DNA of 64,000 nucleotides, from positions 4,394-68,393 of the forward strand of contig JAILZY010000011.1 in the NCBI GenBank assembly GCA_023512255.1, read 5' to 3'. The notes beneath the pieces were generated by a model. The model searched no databases, was not told the DNA's origin, and was given only the letters and a program-made list of their open reading frames with translations. Shown one piece after another: positions 4,239 to 64,000 of this stretch. A program made the position numbers and the translations under genes. Within the stretch, counting starts at the first letter, position 1. Every line of letters starts with the position of its first letter. The stretch is from a bacterium. Its GTDB lineage: Bacteria; SZUA-182; DTGQ01.

Positions 4239-4435
4239 CCAACGAAGAAATAGCCAAATTCTTCAACACAACGCGGCCACACATCCAGGGCAACCCAAAC
4301 CTGCGTGATCCCCTCAGGGATGGTTCCGCAGGCGCTAGCACTTCCCCAGCAGCGCTGCTCGCAGGTGCGGCAGGTAGCAAGGTGGCTCTGCACGCACCAG
4401 CACTTCCTGTTTTTGGCTCATATAGCCGATGCTAG
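4235..4435 (+). CDS. Small unrecognised ORF overlapping the hsdR stop
   Basis: An ATG at 4235 overlaps the hsdR stop in an ATGA arrangement and opens a 66-residue frame beginning [18 protein letters not shown]. The overlap suggests translational coupling and the first ~25 residues look protein-like. The remainder is low in complexity (Ala, Gly, Ser) and runs into decayed sequence with short repeats. It may be the head of a broken gene. I do not recognise a family. Confidence 0.3.
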
Positions 4436-10786: not shown

Positions 10787-10876
10787 GAGGGTAATGGTAC
10801 TGGTGTGCCCCACGGACTTCAAATCCGTCGGTCGGCCTGTGCAAGGGCCGTAGGAGGTTCGATTCCCCTTACCCTC
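10787..10876 (+). tRNA. selC: tRNA-Sec (anticodon UCA)
   Basis: The 90-nt sequence has a long acceptor stem (GAGGGTAA with TTACCCTC), a 5-bp D stem (GGTAC/GTGCC) with a 4-base loop, an anticodon arm ACGGA-CTTCAAA-TCCGT with anticodon TCA, and a long variable arm (CGGCC/GGCCG). The T-arm has the TTCGATT loop. The long acceptor, large variable arm and UCA anticodon identify selenocysteine tRNA. The base after the acceptor is T rather than the usual G and no CCA is encoded, unlike the nearby tRNA-Val. selB follows 330 bp downstream. Confidence 0.93.
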
Positions 10877-10939
10877 TTTAAATTTTATTCAGAAACTTTA
10901 TCAAGGGGGCGAAGCAATGACCTTATCAAAAGTCTAAGC

Positions 10940-40755: not shown

Positions 40756-41754
40756 ATGGAATGCGCGGTTATTACTACATATCGCTGTAATGCTCGATGC
40801 CAGATGTGCAATACTTGGCAGGCACCTACCTCAAAGAGCGAAGAGTTTAATCCAGCCATTTTGGAGAAAATCCCTGGCGGCATGATTCGACTCAACATTA
40901 CCGGTGGTGAGCCGATGCTGAGGGATGACATCATGGATATCGTAAGCATTCTGGATAAAAAGACCAAAAGGCTAGAAATCAGCACCAATGGCTATTTCAC
41001 TGACCGGATCATCAAGGTGTGCGAGCGGTTTCCTAATATCACCATTCGGGTAAGTGTCGAGGGGCTGCCAAAGCTCAATGATGAGCTTCGGGGAATCAAG
41101 AACGGCTTTGACCATGCTCTGCGGACTATTTTAAAACTCAAAGCTATGGGCATAAGAGACATTGGCTTTGGCATTGTGATCTCGGATCGCAACTGCTCTG
41201 ATCTTTTGGAATTATACACGCTCTGCTCCAGTATGGGGATAGAATTCGGGAATGCCACGATGCATAACTCATTCTATTTCCATAAACTTGACAACAAGAT
41301 AGAGGATGTGGATAAGGCTGTCGGCCAGATGAAGCGCTTCATCCAAGCTCTTCTCCAAAGCCACAGGAGCAGCTTGCGGATGCGGCTTAAAGATTGGGCC
41401 CGAGCATACTTGAATCTTGGAACCCTTGGTTATATTCAAGGCAAAGCCAGGCCGCTTGGCTGTGGTGCAGCTACGGATACCTTTTTCATTGATCCCTGGG
41501 GTAGGGTTATGGCCTGCAATGGCTCGGCTGAGCCCTGGATCATGGGGGATCTGAAAACCCAATCATTTGATGATATATGGTATGGCCCACAAGCAGAAGC
41601 AGTGCGGCAGAAGGTGCGAGAGTGCCGGCGCAACTGCTGGATGACCGGCACTGCCGTGCCAGCTATGCGAAAGAATATCTGGGTGCCGCTTATCTGGATC
41701 ATCAAAAGTAAACTTAATCTTGCTCTCGGCAAGGAGGTTGTGCCCGAATGTTAA
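40756..41754 (+). CDS. Radical SAM protein with SPASM-like C-terminus
   Basis: The 332-residue protein has CNARCQMC at 11-18 (CxxxCxxC), the GGEPMLR SAM-binding turn and a C-terminal Cys set (LGCGAATDTFFIDPWGRVMACNG, then CRRNCW) like a SPASM/twitch domain. Such enzymes modify peptides or small molecules by radical chemistry; in polysaccharide loci they are found but poorly understood. The 7-base overlap with the next gene suggests cotranslation. Confidence 0.85.
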   Translation: MECAVITTYRCNARCQMCNTWQAPTSKSEEFNPAILEKIPGGMIRLNITGGEPMLRDDIMDIVSILDKKTKRLEISTNGYFTDRIIKVCERFPNITIRVSVEGLPKLNDELRGIKNGFDHALRTILKLKAMGIRDIGFGIVISDRNCSDLLELYTLCSSMGIEFGNATMHNSFYFHKLDNKIEDVDKAVGQMKRFIQALLQSHRSSLRMRLKDWARAYLNLGTLGYIQGKARPLGCGAATDTFFIDPWGRVMACNGSAEPWIMGDLKTQSFDDIWYGPQAEAVRQKVRECRRNCWMTGTAVPAMRKNIWVPLIWIIKSKLNLALGKEVVPEC

Positions 41755-50479: not shown

Positions 50480-51128
50480 ATGATTTTCTTCTGGCTATTG
50501 ATTTTTACTCCTCTACCCAAAGGAACAATAACCTTTTGGCCTTCTGCTACAGTTCACCACCTTGTCTGCCTCGGGCTATTGATCAGTCTTCTGGTTGAGA
50601 TGAGATGGAGGATGGGTAAATCAAACGGAGGCTGGCAAAAGGCGCGAACCTGTTTGGATCTGCCCATCCTGATCTTTTTCCTCCTCCTTACCCTGTCGGC
50701 TGTATTCTCGATTGATCGCAAGCACAGTCTTTTTTGAATTATTGAAGTTTATTGATTGTGTAATTATTTACTACACGGTAGTATTTCGGTGTGATAACCA
50801 AAGAGATATAAATTTATGCCTCTATCTCATCATGGGCGTAGGATTTTTCTTCTCTGTCCGGGGCATTATTCAATACCTCGGAGGAGCAGACCGCTCTTTT
50901 TGGCTCCTCGCCAACGAGCTTTCAGGGCCGTTTGATAATTCTGATGTTTTCGCTGGCTATCTGATTATGGTCATATTGCCTGGGCTTGGGGTAATGACTG
51001 CTCCCTTGCTCCATTTTATGTCAAATACTATCCTTCTGGCTACCTTAAGCGGCCTGGCTATGAGCAGATATTTTCAAGAGAAAAGCCGGCTGAAGGAGCC
51101 TTCCTATATCAGAGATAGCAGTTTTTGA
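50480..51128 (+). pseudogene. O-antigen ligase-like gene, frameshifted and truncated
   Basis: Two frames together spell the N-terminal part of a polymerase/ligase: 50480-50737 (hydrophobic helices, ending SIDRKHSLF) and the frame of 50712-51128 (FELLKFIDCVIIYYTV, FFSVRGIIQYLGG, GPFDNSDVFAGYLIM). The join is at a T6 run near 50730-50735 where one base too many or too few breaks the frame. After about 215 codons the gene ends without the Wzy_C domain, so it is truncated too. The intact counterpart is at 37368-38840. A sequencing error could explain the frameshift but not the truncation. Confidence 0.75.
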
Positions 51129-55440: not shown

Positions 55441-56643
55441 ATGGCTGAAGAAGAAAAATTATTCCTGGCTTGTTTGCGCTTTTTTTTCAGGAAAATGGAT
55501 TCAGTAGCTGAAATCCGAGCTTGCCTTGGGAAAGAGATAGACTGGGATCTTATTCTTTCCTGGGCGCAATGGCATGGGGTAAGTCCTCTGCTGTATCACA
55601 TCCTGAAAGAAATAGGCTGGTCAGGGATACCAAAGCAGGTCAGGGAGAGATTAGAGCATAGTTTTCGGCTGAATATGGCCAGAAACCTTTTCCTGTGGGC
55701 AGAAACAAGCAAGGTTTTGACTGCCCTAGAAAAGCAGAGAATAATCAGCCTTCCACTAAAGGGTATTTTTTTGTCGGAGGAAGTCTATCCAGACATATCA
55801 TTTCGGGTGGTAACTGATATTGATCTGCTGATTCGGCAAGAGGATCTGGCCGCAGCCGAAGCCTCACTGATAGAGCTGGGGTATTGCCGCGACCCTTTTA
55901 TCAGAAAGGGGCTTCTACCAGATAACTGTTATACACTACATATGGAGAAGGGAGAAAGAGTCGGGCAGAGACTATGTGTTGAGTTGCACTGGGGGCTAGC
56001 TAACCCTCGGGATTATGCCCTGCCAGTGAAAAGCTGGTGGGAGGAAATCTTTCATAACAGTCGCAGCGCCTATTCTTGGAACGGAATAAGCTGTTTGCGG
56101 ATGGGACCTGAGATAACCCTACTCTATCTGACTATCAATGCCCATATGTCCCGCTATTCATTCCTCAAGCAGTTGATTGATATCGGCCAGGTTATCAACC
56201 ATTATGAGCATGAGATGGATTGGAAAAAAGTAGCTGGCATGGCTAGTGAGCTTGGCCTTCTCGATAATCTGGTTTTTGCCTTGGGACTGGTTCAGCGAAT
56301 GTTTGACCTGCGGATAGGAAGCGAATTGATTAATTGGCCACTCTCATGGAAGCAGAGGATGCTTCGGTCGATCTTTAGGGAACACAGGCTTGTGCAGGGC
56401 TTGATAGGCCAAGATTTGAGACAATTTCTTCTGCTGTTTTTACTCGATGAGAAGATGATCATCAGCTCGATCTTTAAGGTGTTATTCTCCTCACGACAGA
56501 CCATTGCTTACCGCTATGGTCTGCCTCCTCAGTCATGGAGTAATTACTTCTATCTTATTCTCAATCCCTTGCTTTCTATCTATCGTTTGTTTCGAGGGGC
56601 AGTTGTGGATTGCTGGTCAGGTAAGGGGGTGGGTAAAACATAA
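55441..56643 (+). CDS. Nucleotidyltransferase-fold protein (PF14907 type)
   Basis: The 400-residue protein has the minimal nucleotidyltransferase site in FRVVTDIDLLIRQEDLAAAE (the DxD is in TDIDLL), preceded by LPLKGIFLSEEVYPD, and WHWGL-like VELHWGLANP. These features fit the PF14907 family, which is common beside PqqD-like and radical SAM or lasso-peptide genes. It starts 44 bp after the transaldolase. It may transfer a nucleotidyl group to a peptide or protein; its role is not established. It is the first gene of the peptide cassette. Confidence 0.85.
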   Translation: MAEEEKLFLACLRFFFRKMDSVAEIRACLGKEIDWDLILSWAQWHGVSPLLYHILKEIGWSGIPKQVRERLEHSFRLNMARNLFLWAETSKVLTALEKQRIISLPLKGIFLSEEVYPDISFRVVTDIDLLIRQEDLAAAEASLIELGYCRDPFIRKGLLPDNCYTLHMEKGERVGQRLCVELHWGLANPRDYALPVKSWWEEIFHNSRSAYSWNGISCLRMGPEITLLYLTINAHMSRYSFLKQLIDIGQVINHYEHEMDWKKVAGMASELGLLDNLVFALGLVQRMFDLRIGSELINWPLSWKQRMLRSIFREHRLVQGLIGQDLRQFLLLFLLDEKMIISSIFKVLFSSRQTIAYRYGLPPQSWSNYFYLILNPLLSIYRLFRGAVVDCWSGKGVGKT

Positions 56644-56840
56644 GAGATGTTTGCATCCGATGTATTTTAATAATTAATTATAAAAAATATTTTTTACCTT
56701 ATTGTTTAAATTAAAATTATCAGTAATAAATTTTATTTTATGTTTTATATTGAAATTCGATTTAATCTTGGATATAATAGGAAGGAAAGTAGAAATTTTC
56801 ATATTACCAGATTATCAAGCATACTATCAGGGAGATTTAT

Positions 56841-57137
56841 ATGCTCGCAAAATATATCGCCAGAAATGAAAATACAGCTTCAAGGATAATTGATGGGCAA
56901 GCCGTAATCATGACCCTGACAGACAATACCTTACACACGTTGAATGCAGTAGGCTCAAGAATATGGGAATTATGTACTGGCCAAAAAACCATGGAAGAAA
57001 TTATTCAGATAATCCAGGAAGAATATATATCCTCAAGACCCGATGAGATCAGATCAGATTGTGAGATTTTCTTTAAGGATTTGTACAGTAAGGGGATGGT
57101 GGTTATATTGGATGAGAAGGCCCAAGGGAATAATTAG
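56841..57137 (+). CDS. PqqD-like peptide-recognition protein
   Basis: The 98-residue protein resembles PqqD: a beta-hairpin and three-helix shape suggested by RNENTASRIIDGQAVIMTLTD (trimmed), LHTLNAVGSRIWELCTG and TMEEIIQIIQEEY. In this family the domain is the RiPP recognition element that binds the precursor's leader. It lies 9 bp before the radical SAM gene, with GGGAGATTTATATG upstream. Confidence 0.9.
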   Translation: MLAKYIARNENTASRIIDGQAVIMTLTDNTLHTLNAVGSRIWELCTGQKTMEEIIQIIQEEYISSRPDEIRSDCEIFFKDLYSKGMVVILDEKAQGNN

Positions 57138-57146
57138 GTACCGATC

Positions 57147-58268
57147 ATGAAAGATATTATATCCTACGTCCAGGAGAAGAAGATCCCCCTTGCAGTACAC
57201 ATTAATTTAACTAGGCGATGTAATCTCCACTGCCTTCACTGCTGTGTGGGGAAGGGAAGAAAGACCGCATCTGGCCAAGCAGGAACGACTGAGGCTGGTT
57301 TTGAGCTAGGGCTGATGCACATTCAGCGAGTCTTTGAGGAGCTGGCTCAAGTTGGCTGTCTTCTTCTCACCCTTTCAGGCGGGGAAGTTTTGCTTCGAGA
57401 TGATCTGCTTGAGATTATAAGCCGGGCGAGGGAGTTGGATTTTGCGGTTAAGATTTTTACTAACGGAACCTTAGTTGGTAGAAAGGAGGCCCAAGCATTT
57501 CATAGACTACGTATTCAGGAAGTGCATGTCAGCCTATATGGGGCAGATGCAAAGATACATGATCTGATCACCGGTGTTTCCGGCTCCTGGACGAAGAGCA
57601 TGGAAGGGATTCGGTGGCTGAGGGAGGAAGGCGTAGCGGTTAAGGTAAAGTGCCCCATAATGAAGCAAAACCTGGCCGAGTATCGTAAGGTATATGAGCT
57701 GGCGGTGAGTCTTGGAGCTGATTATGCTTTTGACCCGATGATTACCGTCCGGGATGATGGGAACCGAGATCCGCTCAACTACCGAATAAGTCAAGAAGAT
57801 TTGCAGATGGTCCTAGCTGATCCTATTTTTCAGACTAAGCGCAAAAGCTATAGGGAAAGAGAGGAGAGTTTTGCCTGCTCAGCCAGTATGATGAGTGAAA
57901 TAAGTGAAGAGGTCCTCTGCAGTGCCGGTCATTATATCTGCTTCATTTCTCCAGAGGGTGATATTAACCCTTGTGTTCAGTTGCCTATTTTCTGTGGCAA
58001 TGTCCTAGAGCATGATTTTCAATGGATTTGGTATCATTCACCGCAGATGCTTAGAATTCGGAATCTGCGGATGAAAGATGTTCGGAGCTGCAATAACTGT
58101 AGGTACCTCCCCTGGTGTGCCAGATGTCCTGGCTTAGCCTATCTTGAAGATGGCGATCTCCTTGGTCCTTCCAGTGCTGCCTGTTGGATGGTGCAAGCAA
58201 AAGAGGGAGACAGACAGTTTAATAATCAGATACAAGCCAATAATCAAATACAACCTATTGTAACTTAA
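57147..58268 (+). CDS. Radical SAM/SPASM peptide-modifying enzyme
   Basis: The 373-residue protein has the SAM cluster CNLHCLHC at residues 25-32 after HINLTRR, SGGEVLLRDDL, and a C-terminal SPASM domain with Cys in CSAGHYICFISPEGDINPC, CGNVL, CNNCRYLPWCARC and CW. SPASM enzymes of this kind install crosslinks or epimerise peptide residues. A short Cys-containing peptide gene follows at 58322, and the PqqD gene precedes it. Substrate and product are unknown. Confidence 0.92.
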   Translation: MKDIISYVQEKKIPLAVHINLTRRCNLHCLHCCVGKGRKTASGQAGTTEAGFELGLMHIQRVFEELAQVGCLLLTLSGGEVLLRDDLLEIISRARELDFAVKIFTNGTLVGRKEAQAFHRLRIQEVHVSLYGADAKIHDLITGVSGSWTKSMEGIRWLREEGVAVKVKCPIMKQNLAEYRKVYELAVSLGADYAFDPMITVRDDGNRDPLNYRISQEDLQMVLADPIFQTKRKSYREREESFACSASMMSEISEEVLCSAGHYICFISPEGDINPCVQLPIFCGNVLEHDFQWIWYHSPQMLRIRNLRMKDVRSCNNCRYLPWCARCPGLAYLEDGDLLGPSSAACWMVQAKEGDRQFNNQIQANNQIQPIVT

Positions 58269-58307
58269 GTTATTTTTGTAAACTAGGTTAACGTTCATCT
58301 ATAAGTT

Positions 58308-58314
58308 AAGGAGG
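58308..58314 (+). promoter_or_regulatory. Strong ribosome binding site of the precursor peptide gene
   Basis: AAGGAGG lies 7 bases before ATG 58322 and sets the start. It is the best match to the anti-SD in the cassette, fitting a highly expressed precursor. Confidence 0.8.
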
Positions 58315-58321
58315 TAGAATC

Positions 58322-58486
58322 ATGGAAGAAAAAAAGACAACAGTCGCAAAACCAGCAGTCAAAAAGGTTTATGAAAAACCCCAGATAGTTTCCGAAGAAG
58401 TATTTGAGACCTTGGCTCTTGCCTGCTGCAAGAGTAATAACTGTAAGAATTACGGCCTTCCGAAGGGGATGCACGCTGTAAGTTAA
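58322..58486 (+). CDS. Candidate RiPP precursor peptide (54 residues)
   Basis: This short gene runs from ATG 58322 to TAA 58484-58486. The Lys/Val-rich leader (MEEKKTTVAKPAVKKV) is followed by YEKPQIVSEEVFETLALA, then a core with Cys35, Cys36 and Cys41 (CCKSNNCKNYGLPKGMHAVS). The middle motif looks like a leader recognised by PqqD-type domains, from comparison with radical SAM-linked precursors in memory. It lies 53 bp after the radical SAM gene on the same strand, with AAGGAGG at 58308-58314. No other precursor was seen in the cassette. Confidence 0.85.
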   Translation: MEEKKTTVAKPAVKKVYEKPQIVSEEVFETLALACCKSNNCKNYGLPKGMHAVS

Positions 58487-58807
58487 TAGATCAAGGTTCC
58501 AGCCTGCTGACCCTTTGTTCAGTGTAAAAATTCTCGATTGAGTTATAATTTTTAATATTTTTTACAAAATTCAGCACTTCATATAGCATAAGATGCAGGC
58601 TCATCCTCCAGGATGAGCACTAATCACACACGTCTCTTCTTTGGGGGGAGGAAGAGTGGTGATTTTTCCCTAAAAGTGCCACTTTGGCTCTTCATTCATC
58701 TTTTGGCCTAAGGCTAGCTCTGATGGGACAAGGGGACAGTAGCGCGGCTTTTATAAACATGGAGACCTAACTTTTCCTAAATCTGCCTTTAATGAGGAAA
58801 AAGAAAA
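58487..58807. other. Intergenic region with a hairpin downstream of the precursor
   Basis: The 321-bp gap has a perfect 9-bp stem (GCTCATCCT and AGGATGAGC, about 58600-58619) not followed by a T-run, then GC-skewed sequence. It could stabilise or end the precursor transcript. No known riboswitch was recognised. Confidence 0.5.
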
Positions 58808-61800
58808 ATGAAACGAAAGTCTTTTACGATCCTGACATCATTATTGTTTGGATTTATACTCAGTTTATGCCTATTTTTTTGGCATACGCCGCCTGCCTAT
58901 TCCCAGGATAAGGCAGCGGAGAGTACTACTTTGAGTCCGTCGCCCAGAAAAACTTCTGGCGCCTACGTTATCGAAGATATAGCCTATGATCCTGAAACCC
59001 AAATTTATACCTATACATATGTATTGCATAATCTGGGAAAACAGCAAGTTTGGTGGTGGGGTATATGGTATGAGGAAGATCCTCAAGCTATACTTGATGA
59101 CTCTTCGGTAGATGAAAATGGCTTTGCCCCTACTGACTTGACTGACTGCTCGCCTGGATGGAAAAATTCTGCCCCTGAGAGACGGATGGGGTTTTATTTA
59201 TACAGTGGTCCTAATGGGGAGCTAGGTTTTTATTCCACCTATGCCAGCGACTCTCGGTCGGGAAATAGCCCGATCGTTCCTGATTCTATCAATGTTCCCC
59301 GACTTGGAGGCCAGTGGGGATGGAATGGGCCAGGAGCGAATATTATCACCGCCTATGGAATCCAAAAAGGACAAACAGGCTATTATGTGATTCGGTCTAA
59401 AAAGTATTTTCCAGATAATAAGATGTTTTTCTACAATACCAAGGATTACTGGAATTCCTACTTCGATCCTCAGACCGGGCAACTTGTCATCAGGGGGTTG
59501 GAATTTGTCTCTATAACTCAGCGGTCCTATTCGATATCAATGTCTCTGACCCGGGGGTATAATCTTATTTCGCAACCCCTTGAGGAGCTGATAACCTCAG
59601 ACAATCTCTCATCTGCTTCCTACCGGGCCTCAACTCTGTTGAGTAGCATTCCGGGATGTCAAAAAGTTATTCGCTTTGATCCTAAATCCCAAAAGACCGA
59701 AAGCTATATCTCTTGGGATGGAACCGCGATCGGCACTGACTTTCCGATTAAGCCTGGTGAGGGATACTATACCGAGGTATCCACTGACACCACTTTTAAC
59801 CTTACCGGCTTGCTAGCTACTGAGCCGCAAACCCTTAATCTAAGCCAGGGGTATAATTTAATCTCTTTTATTTACGGACCTAATATGCCTGACGACCCAA
59901 GGACAGGCTATAGCTCATCATCGCTCTTGTCAGCAATTCCAGGCTGCAAATCTGTGATCCGCTTTAATCCTGTATCACAAAAGACTGAAAGCTACCGAAT
60001 TTGGGCTGGGTATAATATCGGAACAGAGTTTGACATTCGGGTTGGAGAAGGATATATGGTTGAGGTCCAGGATGATATTTCCTGGACACCGGCCAAGCTC
60101 TCCCTACCAAGGATGAGGTTCAGGCAGAGCCAGTTGGAGGGTGAGCCTAGCTATGATTTAACCTCATCAGCTCTGCCTGCTCCGATCATCTCCGAGGTCA
60201 GAGAATCATATCAGACAGCAGGCTCAGTGGTTATCTCCTGGATTACTGATATTGATAGTCCGGGCGAGGTCCACTATAGTACCAGCCCCGACCTTAGCGA
60301 CTCAAAACTAGCCAGAGATAGCGTCATAGGAAAGGTCCACTGGGTAGAGTTGAGCGGCTTGCAGCCTGGGACAACCTACTATTATGAGGTACAATCAGGG
60401 GCATCTGTAGACAACAATGCTGGCTCCTACTATCTTTATACTGCTCCTAAGGTATCTCCACCGCTAGATAACGTCTTTATCGGCGGACGCCTTGTAAAGC
60501 CAGATCAAAGCCCACTGGTGGGTGCCCTGGTATTGGTTACGATTAACCACCGTGGGGTTTATTCTTATCCTCTCTCCACCCGCACTACCAAAGACGGAAT
60601 ATGGCTTTTGAACCTGGCTGATTTGAAAAATTCTCTCACCGGAGATTCACTGCCAAATAGCCCAAATGATCCAGTCCTAATCGAAGTCAACGGCGGTGAT
60701 GGTTGGCAGGCAGATGATGCGACCAGAATGATTTCCGATCTGACTGAAGATAAAGCCTATACCCTGATTGTGTCTTCTCCGACCTCAGTCGCTTTGGCTA
60801 CCCCTATATTTTCTCCCCCATCCTGCACTTTCATTGGTTCAATTACCGTATCAATCACCTGTGCTATTCAAGGGGCCACTATCCGCTACACCAAAGATGG
60901 CAGCGAGCCGACCGCAAACTCACTCACCTATACCACTCCTCTGACCCTAACTGAGACTACAACCATAAAGGCTAAAGCCTTTAATGGAAGATATGCCCTA
61001 AGCAATACCGCATCTGAGACATATACTAGAATCCGGGAAAAAGTAGCTACCCCTGTTCTTTCTCCCTCATCTGGTACTTTCACTGATTCAATTCCCGTAT
61101 CAATAACTTGCGCTACGCCAGGAGCCACTATCCGCTACACTAAAGATGGCAGCGAGCCGACCGTAAACTCACCCGCCTATACCACTCCTCTGACCTTGAC
61201 TAAGACTACTACCCTTAAGGTTAAGGCTTTTAAAAGCGGCTACTATACTCCTAGTGATACTGTAAGCGGGACCTACACCAAATTGGAAAAAATGGCTACC
61301 CCTGTCATCTCTCCTGTGGTCCGAACTTTTATCCCCTCAGTTTCTGTATCTATAACTTGTGCGACTCAAGGAGCCACCATCTGCTATACGACCGATGGAA
61401 GCGAGCCGACCGAAAGCTCACCTGTCTATACTGCTCCCCTGACACTGACCAGCACCACTACGGTTAAAGCCAAGGCCTTCAAAGAGGGCTACATCCCAAG
61501 TGAAGTCGTAAGCGCAACTTATACGAAATTAGCAGAAAAAGTGGCTACTCCTTCATTCTCTCTTCCATCAGGCATTTTCACCGGTTCAGTTTCTGTATCC
61601 ATAACCTGTGCGACTCAAGGAGCCACCATCTGCTATACGACCGATGGAAGCGAGCCGACCGAAAGTTCACCTGTCTATACTGCTCCCCTGACCCTGACCA
61701 CCACCACCACGATCAAAGCCAAGGCCTTCAAAGAGGGCTACACCCCAAGTACTACGGCTCAAGCTACCTATACGAGGAAAGTTGCTGTTGTGGCTAAACC

Positions 61801-62257
61801 CACTCTCTCTCCCTCATCTGGTACTTTTACTAATTCAGTTTCTGTATCAATAACTTGCGCTACGCCAGGGGCCACTATCCGCTACACTAAAGATGGCAGC
61901 GAGCCGACTGAAAGCTCACCCACCTATACCGCTCCCCTGACTCTGACCAGCACCACTACGGTCAAAGCCAAGGCCTTCAAGGATGATTATACCCCAAGTG
62001 ATGTTGTCAGCGGAACTTATACCATCAAGCCGAAACAGCCGTCGAGCTCAACCCCATCAACTCCTGTTTATACGAGTGGAACCTCCACTCTGTGGACTCA
62101 ACCATGGTCTTACTCCTACAGCGCTCTTAGCCTAGACTATCAACCTTCGTACTTTAACAGTCTGGGTGGTTATCAGCAGTTGTTGTCTTCTTGGAACTAT
62201 TCAGCATGGCCACTTACCTCAAGCTGGAGCTACTCAGCATGGCCGAGCAATTTTTAA
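58808..62257 (+). CDS. Large secreted protein with chitobiase/FN3-associated repeats
   Basis: The 1149-residue protein has a signal peptide (residues 1-33, hydrophobic FTILTSLLFGFILSLCLFF). After a ~230-residue unassigned N-part come two ~90-residue repeats (MSLTRGYNLISQPL... and LNLSQGYNLISFIYG..., each with IPGC and KTESY). A fibronectin type III-like domain with WITDIDSPGEVHYST follows, then an all-beta carboxypeptidase regulatory-like region. Five ~83-residue repeats (~660-1075) each have SITCATPGATIRYTKDGSEP followed by TTTLKVKAFK-like words, typical of CHB_HEX_C/FN3-associated domains. A Trp/Ser/Tyr-rich tail ends the protein (SWNYSAWP and SWSYSAWP). It is probably a cell-surface adhesin or coat protein. 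It is between the precursor and HprK-like genes. Confidence 0.85.
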   Translation: MKRKSFTILTSLLFGFILSLCLFFWHTPPAYSQDKAAESTTLSPSPRKTSGAYVIEDIAYDPETQIYTYTYVLHNLGKQQVWWWGIWYEEDPQAILDDSSVDENGFAPTDLTDCSPGWKNSAPERRMGFYLYSGPNGELGFYSTYASDSRSGNSPIVPDSINVPRLGGQWGWNGPGANIITAYGIQKGQTGYYVIRSKKYFPDNKMFFYNTKDYWNSYFDPQTGQLVIRGLEFVSITQRSYSISMSLTRGYNLISQPLEELITSDNLSSASYRASTLLSSIPGCQKVIRFDPKSQKTESYISWDGTAIGTDFPIKPGEGYYTEVSTDTTFNLTGLLATEPQTLNLSQGYNLISFIYGPNMPDDPRTGYSSSSLLSAIPGCKSVIRFNPVSQKTESYRIWAGYNIGTEFDIRVGEGYMVEVQDDISWTPAKLSLPRMRFRQSQLEGEPSYDLTSSALPAPIISEVRESYQTAGSVVISWITDIDSPGEVHYSTSPDLSDSKLARDSVIGKVHWVELSGLQPGTTYYYEVQSGASVDNNAGSYYLYTAPKVSPPLDNVFIGGRLVKPDQSPLVGALVLVTINHRGVYSYPLSTRTTKDGIWLLNLADLKNSLTGDSLPNSPNDPVLIEVNGGDGWQADDATRMISDLTEDKAYTLIVSSPTSVALATPIFSPPSCTFIGSITVSITCAIQGATIRYTKDGSEPTANSLTYTTPLTLTETTTIKAKAFNGRYALSNTASETYTRIREKVATPVLSPSSGTFTDSIPVSITCATPGATIRYTKDGSEPTVNSPAYTTPLTLTKTTTLKVKAFKSGYYTPSDTVSGTYTKLEKMATPVISPVVRTFIPSVSVSITCATQGATICYTTDGSEPTESSPVYTAPLTLTSTTTVKAKAFKEGYIPSEVVSATYTKLAEKVATPSFSLPSGIFTGSVSVSITCATQGATICYTTDGSEPTESSPVYTAPLTLTTTTTIKAKAFKEGYTPSTTAQATYTRKVAVVAKPTLSPSSGTFTNSVSVSITCATPGATIRYTKDGSEPTESSPTYTAPLTLTSTTTVKAKAFKDDYTPSDVVSGTYTIKPKQPSSSTPSTPVYTSGTSTLWTQPWSYSYSALSLDYQPSYFNSLGGYQQLLSSWNYSAWPLTSSWSYSAWPSNF

Positions 62258-62312
62258 CTCTTGCCAAGTTGCTGATTAAAGTTTTATAGAGTTATTCTCA
62301 TTTCACTTATTT

Positions 62313-62344
62313 CCCCTGGCTTCCCACTTTGTGGGGGCCAGGGG
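62313..62344 (+). terminator. Strong stem-loop after the surface protein gene
   Basis: CCCCTGGC and GCCAGGGG pair, continued by TTCCCAC with GTGGGG, around a small loop. A second stem (CTGCCCC/GGGGCAG, 62370-62391) follows. There is no long T-run, so it may be a factor-independent pause or an RNA stability hairpin. Confidence 0.5.
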
Positions 62345-62466
62345 AGAGCCTGCTAGAAGAGACTATGGCCTGCCCCTCGCCTCGGGGGCAGAAACCCATT
62401 TTATTCCCAGAAATTATTATATTCTCTAAAATTAACCAAGCAGTCGCTTACAAATGGAAATAATTC

Positions 62467-63324
62467 ATGGAAATGAAAAATATCGAATTGGAAATTGGCG
62501 GCATTCCCCTAATCATTAGCTCTAGTGAGTCAGGATTTATCCAAATGATAGCGGATAAATATCGGGCTTTTATTATCTCCCCTAATGGGTTCAAGACAAA
62601 CAATACTCAGCGATCTGCTTATTCTGGCTGCCACTCACCTATTCATCTGCATCTTGACCTTCGGCAGAAGGAAATGGAAAAGCGGGCTGAGGAGATGATC
62701 AAAGAAGAGCTTTGGGTAGATGTTTCTTATCAAAATAAGAAATTTACCATCCGAAGGCCAGATCTTGAGGGCGAGATAGATCTTGTCAGCCGAAGGGCTA
62801 GGGTTATCAACAGGGCAGCAGTTTACAGCTTTGATTCTTTCTTGCGAATTCTATACTCACTGATTCTGGCTCAAGAAGAGGGCTTTCTCCTTCACGCCGC
62901 CTCGGTAATAAGAGATGGGTTAGGGTATTTATTTATGGGAAAGTCTGGAGCAGGAAAGTCCACTGTTGCTGCCCATTCTTCTGAATATACGATTTTGAGT
63001 GACGAAATTTCTTTGGTTAAAAAGGTGGGAATTGATTATTTAGTCTACAGCACCCCTTTTTGGGGAGAGCAAGAAATTAAGGGTAAAAATTTTTCTTCTC
63101 CGCTTGCGGGAGTCTACCAGCTTAAGCAAGGCTTGCGGGTTGTGGCTAAAAGGTTGCCCAAAAGGGAAGCTTTCCGCAAGCTTATGGGAAATATCCTCTA
63201 TTTTAGTCGAGAGCCTTTCCTAACTAGGCAATTATTCCAAAATTGTGTGGATTTTATTCAGCAGGTATCGGTATATGAGTTAGAATTCCAAAAGGATGGT
63301 TTGTTTTGGGGAGTAATCAGTTAA
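62467..63324 (+). CDS. HprK-like P-loop kinase-family protein
   Basis: The 285-residue protein has an N-terminal ~140 residues of mixed alpha/beta character and the P-loop GKSGAGKS at 158-165 within YLFMGKSGAGKSTVAAH, followed by LSDEISLVKK. It lacks the standard HPr-kinase signature loop, as in the HprK-related proteins beside lasso-peptide, PqqD and nucleotidyltransferase genes. It may phosphorylate a peptide or protein of the cassette, or act as an ATP-dependent assembly factor. It is separated from the other cassette genes by the large secreted-protein gene. Confidence 0.85.
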   Translation: MEMKNIELEIGGIPLIISSSESGFIQMIADKYRAFIISPNGFKTNNTQRSAYSGCHSPIHLHLDLRQKEMEKRAEEMIKEELWVDVSYQNKKFTIRRPDLEGEIDLVSRRARVINRAAVYSFDSFLRILYSLILAQEEGFLLHAASVIRDGLGYLFMGKSGAGKSTVAAHSSEYTILSDEISLVKKVGIDYLVYSTPFWGEQEIKGKNFSSPLAGVYQLKQGLRVVAKRLPKREAFRKLMGNILYFSREPFLTRQLFQNCVDFIQQVSVYELEFQKDGLFWGVIS

Positions 63325-63563: not shown

Positions 63564-63944
63564 TCAGCTTCCTTTGAGATTGAACAGCGAGCACAGAAAA
63601 TGAAACATACACCAAAACCCCCACCGCGATGCTCGATAAAAAAAATCCGGTTTATGATTTTCACTGTTTCTTTGATTTTTCTCACACGTTTCTATTAAAG
63701 TATAAATTCTGCCAGCCATAGCATAGAATTTTAATAATTTTTGATTTCGCTTTTGCCACAGATCAGGTTGTAATTTGGAGGAAAGCTCTGGCTGACCTTC
63801 AATAGCTAAGACGATGGCGGCAATTTCCTCAGGCTGACATATTTTAGGGAAATAATCATTGTCTCCTTTTTCCCAGAATAATAGCTGATTTTTAAGGCAA
63901 AATCTACTTACAAGTCTATGTATCAGATGTTCCCCATGTTTAAA
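63564..63944 (-). pseudogene. Unrecognised minus-strand frame at the right edge
   Basis: An uninterrupted minus-strand frame of about 126 codons ends at TGA (63566-63564). It reads HLIHRLVSRFCLKNQLLFWE, then PKICQPEEIAAIVLAIEGQP, and looks like real protein, but it has no ATG near its 5' end and meets a stop at 63945-63947. It may be the tail of a broken gene. No family is recognised. The rest of the window's end holds no other gene. Confidence 0.3.
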
Positions 63945-64000
63945 TTAGGAGGAGGAGATAAGCCGCAGGGTAAGGGTATTGAGGTAAAAGATAATAGTAT

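Follow-up and report, generated by a model that had tools for sequence, protein, structure and literature searches.

A predicted radical SAM peptide cassette with an HprK-fold kinase and a candidate C-terminal serine phosphosite in a SZUA-182 bacterium

Gene content and conservation of the cassette

The 64,000-nucleotide stretch analyzed here (hereafter the window; G000:C90:4394-68393, positions 4,394 to 68,393 of contig JAILZY010000011.1, GCA_023512255.1), whose right end coincides with the contig end at position 64000, carries a cassette at 55441-63324 that probably encodes a pathway for a ribosomally synthesized and post-translationally modified peptide (RiPP), which couples a radical S-adenosylmethionine (SAM)/SPASM maturase with the tailoring pair of kinase and nucleotidyltransferase seen in phosphorylated lasso peptides. 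Six plus-strand genes were confirmed in this region, coding in order for a PF14907 protein, a PqqD protein, the radical SAM/SPASM enzyme, the precursor, a large secreted protein and a kinase of the HprK/PEPCK fold. The original prediction, made from the sequence alone, had listed five co-directional genes and a 54-codon peptide gene, all of which are present; its assignment of a RiPP-type cassette is likewise borne out by the combination of a PqqD protein, a SPASM enzyme and a Cys-containing precursor. Its further suggestion of a possible phosphorylation or nucleotidylation can be narrowed to a single predicted residue, the C-terminal Ser of the precursor. The gene set is widespread in bacteria and apparently undescribed so far: a literature search, with most subscription journals beyond its scope, recovered no paper joining HprK-like kinases with radical SAM RiPPs and no mention of 'SynChlorMet' (see below). 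The features that define the cassette are:

55441..56643, plus strand: nucleotidyltransferase-like protein of the PF14907 family, 400 aa (Pfam 4.4e-52), with the phosphorylated peptide as its predicted substrate
56841..57137, plus strand: PqqD-type RiPP recognition protein, 98 aa (Pfam PF05402, 2.4e-15)
57147..58268, plus strand: radical SAM/SPASM maturase, 373 aa (Pfam PF04055, 2.1e-21; SPASM PF13186, 3.9e-7)
58322..58486, plus strand: 54-aa precursor peptide with HAVS at its C-terminus; kept in three related genomes, with motif counterparts in distant loci
58370..58381, plus strand: leader motif Y17-E-K-P20, where PqqD is predicted to bind; alignment A3 has both Y and P invariant, and the leaders of lasso peptides and linear polyphosphorylated peptides (LPP) carry the same motif (PMC13381572)
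58403..58411, plus strand: 'FET', residues 28-30, candidate leader cleavage after Thr30, suggested by FET in curated precursors and by analogy with LPP
58481..58483, plus strand: codon of the C-terminal Ser54, predicted phosphorylation site; Ser is the prevailing last residue across curated and held-out precursors
62467..63324, plus strand: HprK/PEPCK-fold peptide kinase, 285 aa, with His143, Lys164, Asp179 and Glu180 (profiles, alignment and structure model)

Pfam profile searches recovered the PF14907, PqqD, radical SAM and SPASM families with the values given above, while an NCBIfam scan reached the cut-off for none of the cassette proteins. In an alignment of the radical SAM enzymes (A1) the CxxxCxxC motif and the SPASM Cys residues are invariant, and the nearest solved chain to the PqqD protein is the RiPP recognition element (RRE) of a lasso system, TbiB1 (5v1u, 7.1e-8). 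The precursor gene begins 53 bp after the radical SAM/SPASM gene.

The kinase matched the ScmC (6.3e-10) and HprK_rel_A (6.6e-7) profiles, in every case under the curated cut-off. When solved structures were searched with a profile of the kinase, chiefly P-loop proteins were recovered, and the fold was therefore tested with a model instead: an AlphaFold2 model (pLDDT 90.3) matches structures of both PEPCK (Z 14.9) and HprK (1.1e-5). The kinases PadeK, ThcoK and PsmK phosphorylate the C-terminal Ser of lasso precursors via a His-Lys-Asp-Asp motif (PMC9266682); the window kinase has the fold and the catalytic residues, with the last Asp replaced by Glu180. Across 55 loci the catalytic His and Lys are conserved in all 55, and the Asp and the following Glu/Asp in 54 each.

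The cassette is conserved in gene order in a genome of the same genus (G001), including the precursor, the large secreted protein and four sugar genes upstream. In two genomes of the same family, the radical SAM, precursor and kinase genes are retained; one of these (G003) additionally has the PqqD and PF14907 genes, and the contig of the other (G002) is only 3.2 kb long. The five other genomes available from this order or class gave no match to the kinase. In comparisons of the window with G001 the ratio of nonsynonymous to synonymous substitution rates lies at 0.07-0.15 for the cassette proteins (0.05-0.15 for the proteins compared) and at 0.37 for the precursor.

Distribution and co-inheritance

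A scan with the radical SAM alignment, restricted to one genome per species, gave 80 loci, which were then scored with profiles for the four enzyme families. The kinase was found in 36 of these 80 loci, and in 22 of the 24 best. The original prediction had staked itself on these families co-occurring elsewhere, and they do so widely: kinase and radical SAM genes stand together in 54 analyzed loci, nearly all with PqqD, made up of the window, 17 loci retrieved by way of kinase matches (which have the kinase, although not the other families, by construction) and the 36 loci from the scan. They extend over about a dozen phylum-level groups, with named members in Acidobacteriota, Elusimicrobia, Rokubacteria, Lentisphaerae, Binatia, Planctomycetota, Omnitrophota, Aminicenantes, Deltaproteobacteria, WOR-3, Verrucomicrobia, Bdellovibrionales and the actinobacterial-type 'Solincola'. 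Pairwise distances for 55 loci are strongly correlated between HprK-like kinase and radical SAM enzyme (0.87), radical SAM enzyme and PqqD (0.82), and kinase and PqqD (0.75; permutation p = 0.0005). The enzyme set is a co-inherited unit.

The precursor and its C-terminal serine

The 54-codon open reading frame (ORF) is a real gene: its place beside the radical SAM and kinase genes is kept in G001, G002 and G003, and distant loci have counterparts of it. The precursors of the window and of these three close relatives all terminate in Ser (HAVS or HGVS). For ten such peptides NCBIfam gave no significant match. Candidates elsewhere were collected as closed ORFs 35-125 codons long that share the strand of the radical SAM gene and lie at most 1.5 kb from a core gene, with a Y..P.[hydrophobic] motif followed 10-35 residues later by a Cys; the last residue played no part in the filter, the set depends on the motif, and gene calling in the distant loci was mechanical.

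The first set of precursors had a C-terminal Ser in 31 of 42 cases. After this trend was seen, a held-out set of kinase loci was drawn from a different phylum, to which G093 belongs, the phylum of G094 being dropped from this role for having only 4 genomes; here 13 of 14 precursors ended in Ser and the remaining one in Thr, bringing the raw total to 44/56. Related radical SAM loci lacking the kinase showed a C-terminal Ser in 1/12, and other motif-bearing ORFs in 15/167. Fisher's test between kinase-bearing and kinase-less loci gives p = 8.5e-6, a value that overstates independence, the sequences being related. Four motif ORFs that looked like chance matches (three without a final Ser and one with it) were taken out by hand, leaving 52 curated precursors with a C-terminal Ser in 43. 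In this gene set the terminal Ser is conserved over about a dozen phyla. All six Ser codons are used at this position (TCN 33, AGY 11), pointing to selection for the residue itself.

Every one of the 52 curated precursors has at least two Cys, which is compatible with, but no more than compatible with, a Cys thioether of the sactipeptide or ranthipeptide kind. The 'FET' sequence occurs in 17 of them, with 19-24 residues following it in 16. Beyond the Y..P leader motif, the Cys residues and the C-terminal Ser, the precursors of different loci have little in common.

Proposed pathway and alternatives

Whereas the genes, their co-inheritance and the conserved residues are observed, the chemistry of each of the following steps and their order are inferred from homologues. 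The PqqD protein would bind the Y17-x-x-P20 leader motif. The SPASM enzyme would modify the core, with the conserved Cys that follows 'LALA' as the likeliest site and a thioether or C-C crosslink as possible products. The HprK-fold kinase would then place a phosphate on Ser54 by means of His143, Lys164 and Asp179/Glu180; the C-terminal Ser is also the residue on which the homologous lasso-peptide kinases act. The PF14907 protein might transfer a sugar or a nucleotide onto this phosphate. In the lasso system PsmN, annotated as a nucleotidyltransferase, is required for a hexose on the phospho-Ser (PMC9266682). Finally, a protease resembling S26 signal peptidases could cut off the leader, plausibly after Thr30 of 'FET', to release a 24-residue peptide. 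The most likely product thus carries a Cys modification and a phosphate on Ser54, perhaps with a sugar added by the PF14907 protein, and is cleaved after 'FET'.

The candidate leader peptidase is encoded just outside the cassette:

about 63564..63950, minus strand: S26 signal-peptidase-like gene, C-terminal part only; an in-frame stop lies upstream, followed by the contig end

Both G001 (L021:13225-13830:-; profile match 5e-13) and G003 (L023:498-1064:+) have a complete S26 gene in the corresponding convergent arrangement. S26-type peptidases, resembling signal peptidases of the archaeal type, occur near the cassette in about 30 loci, in several of them directly between precursor and kinase. 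The Ser, His and Gly-Asp motifs are seen in these proteins, and one of them scores 49.1, just under the 51.85 cut-off of the archaeal signal peptidase model. ABC-2 exporter genes lie near the cassette in about 9 loci.

Several observations weigh against the pathway as drawn. Nine of the 52 curated precursors (one ending in Thr) lack the C-terminal Ser, although their loci carry the kinase. The sequences are related, and clustering at 50% identity reduces them to 31 clusters, of which 22 have a majority of Ser; the kinase-less control is small (n=12) and partly of a single precursor type. PF14907 proteins are found near the cassette in 23/54 kinase and radical SAM loci, that is in under half, the contigs often being short, and the S26 gene of the window itself is incomplete. 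Moreover, LppK, the related kinase of the LPP system, phosphorylates an internal Ser3 of the core and not the C-terminus (PMC13381572).

The last point raises the possibility that the kinase targets an internal Ser (Ser38 in the window), with the C-terminal Ser being kept for another role, for instance so that a peptidase or exporter can recognize the peptide. LppK acts on Ser3 of the released core (PMC13381572), and the FET motif and S26 peptidase of these loci are LPP-like. However, distant precursors have no internal Ser at a fixed position, whereas Ser is the last residue in most of the raw set, and the sole held-out exception is Thr; we consider an internal target unlikely. Less likely still is that the locus is a SynChlorMet-type cassette whose HprK-like protein is a regulator or ATPase rather than a peptide kinase. 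The best named match of the kinase is indeed ScmC, and a locus above the ScmC cut-off (L174:5134-10988) has the same families, namely two radical SAM genes, PqqD, ScmC, PF14907 and an S26 peptidase, with a precursor that ends in HLTGG and not in Ser. Against this, the scores of all Scm models in the window are far under their cut-offs (in bits, ScmC 38.9/125, ScmD 25.9/100, ScmE 121.8/400 and ScmF 85.2/400), the window has a single radical SAM gene and not two, and the catalytic residues are retained in nearly all the kinases. A division into two pathways, with radical SAM enzyme, PqqD and precursor forming a RiPP system and the PF14907 protein and kinase serving the adjoining exopolysaccharide locus, whose sugar genes end 45 bp before the cassette, is very improbable, as kinase, PqqD and radical SAM enzyme occur together in many phyla in differing surroundings and diverge in step.

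With phosphorylation of the C-terminal Ser retained as the preferred reading, the loci from about a dozen phyla might define a distinct RiPP class, in which a single peptide would receive both a radical SAM crosslink and, on its C-terminal Ser, a phosphate that is then decorated with a sugar or nucleotide; we advance this stronger proposal only tentatively and regard it as somewhat doubtful. Two tailoring logics so far described apart, radical SAM modification and kinase-dependent decoration of a C-terminal Ser, would be combined in such peptides. A practical consequence is a rule for genome mining, which looks for peptides with a Y..P leader, two or more Cys and Ser as the last residue beside PqqD, an HprK-fold kinase and a SPASM enzyme and finds members in many uncultured phyla.

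Relationship to known systems

The cassette shares several features with phosphorylated lasso peptides such as paeninodin and pseudomycoidin (PMC9266682), including an RRE, a leader of the YxxP/WxxP type, an HprK-like kinase, a nucleotidyltransferase (PsmN) and a C-terminal Ser phosphosite. It differs in the enzyme gene beside the precursor, which is for a radical SAM protein in the window and for a macrolactam cyclase in lasso systems; no such cyclase is present among the cassette genes, the genome at large not having been searched for it. A lasso peptide system was considered and rejected: the B2 transglutaminase-like peptidase (PF13471) was not found in the genome, which is 97% complete. 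Separately, a lasso-like precursor (YETPRLVSYGSISKLTQG...) at L169:2550-2717 stands with HprK-like and PqqD-like genes and no radical SAM gene.

The resemblance to LPP, the product of the lpp cluster of Paenibacillus alginolyticus (PMC13381572), extends to a discrete RRE, an HprK-like kinase, a nucleoside triphosphate (NTP) transferase, a YxxP leader with FET before the core and polysaccharide genes alongside. Of a SpI/S26 leader peptidase, also a feature of LPP, the window has the C-terminal part before the contig end, and G001 and G003 have the complete gene. In LPP the SpI peptidase, assisted by the RRE, cleaves after FET (PMC13381572). Unlike the window, the described LPP core has no radical SAM enzyme, and its product is linear (PMC13381572). 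The LPP leader motif is YxxPxVLxHQxIxFETxxS, whereas the corresponding sequence of the window, YEKPQIVSEEVFETLALA, has no HQ and has its FET two residues nearer. LPP has an MsbA-like exporter; there is none among the genes scanned around the window cassette, as far as the contig end at 64000. LPP is also described as restricted to Bacillota, with an internal Ser as its phosphosite (PMC13381572). The original prediction had stated that PF14907-type and HprK-like proteins recur in lasso-peptide and similar loci, and the published phosphorylated lasso and related loci agree with this (PMC9266682, PMC13381572).

SynChlorMet (NCBIfam TIGR04248-TIGR04251) has in common with the cassette PqqD, the HprK-like ScmC and a SPASM radical SAM enzyme. 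The partial likeness noted originally holds in gene content, L174 carrying the same families. Membership of the window in SynChlorMet was rejected on the missed cut-offs, the one radical SAM gene as opposed to two, and the C-terminal Ser of the precursor as opposed to HLTGG. The SynChlorMet-type loci L174 and L035 carry PF14907 and/or S26 peptidase genes, so that Scm would seem to be part of this kinase/NTP-transferase group as well. Maturases of the sactipeptide type such as SkfB (6efn, 1.4e-13) share a radical SAM/SPASM domain acting on a Cys-containing peptide; the window differs from these in its separate PqqD and added kinase and nucleotidyltransferase, and no maturase model reached its cut-off.

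From these comparisons the cassette appears to be a sister of the phosphorylated lasso, LPP and SynChlorMet systems, resembling the latter two but missing defining features of each. It would work in the manner of the tailoring part of phosphorylated lasso peptides and LPP. This points to the kinase/NTP-transferase pair as a portable module, which would act on lasso, linear and radical-SAM peptides and often lies beside polysaccharide loci.

Neighboring genes and genomic surroundings

The large secreted protein is probably a neighbor outside the core cassette:

58808..62257, plus strand: large secreted repeat protein, 1149 aa, with five CHB_HEX_C_1 repeats (Pfam)

The original prediction had counted this repeat-rich protein in the set, a placement that did not hold up: it was found only in the window's genus (G000 and G001), it is absent between precursor and kinase in G002 and G003, and the 321-bp gap upstream of its gene contains a terminator-like hairpin. 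A role as a core part was rejected on its restriction to the genus and on a genome search that recovered no second copy of its N-terminal domain. A looser tie of these cassettes with large secreted proteins may nonetheless exist, other loci having unrelated ones.

Large secreted proteins with C25 (gingipain-like) peptidase domains lie beside kinase/radical SAM cassettes in six loci from different phyla:

L025:3306-7349: C25-domain secreted protein
L034:9-3266 and L034:3755-8824: C25-domain secreted proteins
L062:75-3062: C25-domain secreted protein
L063:9321-12236: C25-domain secreted protein
L066:2588-7648: C25-domain secreted protein
L081:136-7473: C25-domain secreted protein

In the acidobacterial cassettes L040, L043, L048, L049 and L058 a common family of proteins of 700-900 aa adjoins the precursor; the one member tested had no Pfam match.

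Upstream of the cassette is an exopolysaccharide locus (21770-55396) encoding EpsE-type export, a chain-length protein, a tyrosine kinase, a flippase, an O-antigen ligase and glycosyltransferases. Its final genes, immediately before the cassette, are for a heptose-type sugar nucleotide, and G001 has the last four in identical order. LPP and paeninodin loci often adjoin capsule genes (PMC13381572). As a speculation, the donor for the PF14907 protein in this lineage could be a nucleoside diphosphate-heptose supplied by the upstream genes, which would tie the peptide to the exopolysaccharide. Within the exopolysaccharide locus, a second SPASM-type radical SAM gene is present at 40756-41754, under all cut-offs. 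A polysaccharide polymerase-like gene at 50480-51128 appears as two short overlapping ORFs and is probably broken. At 10787-10877 the window contains a tRNA-SeC gene, and the organism may use selenocysteine.

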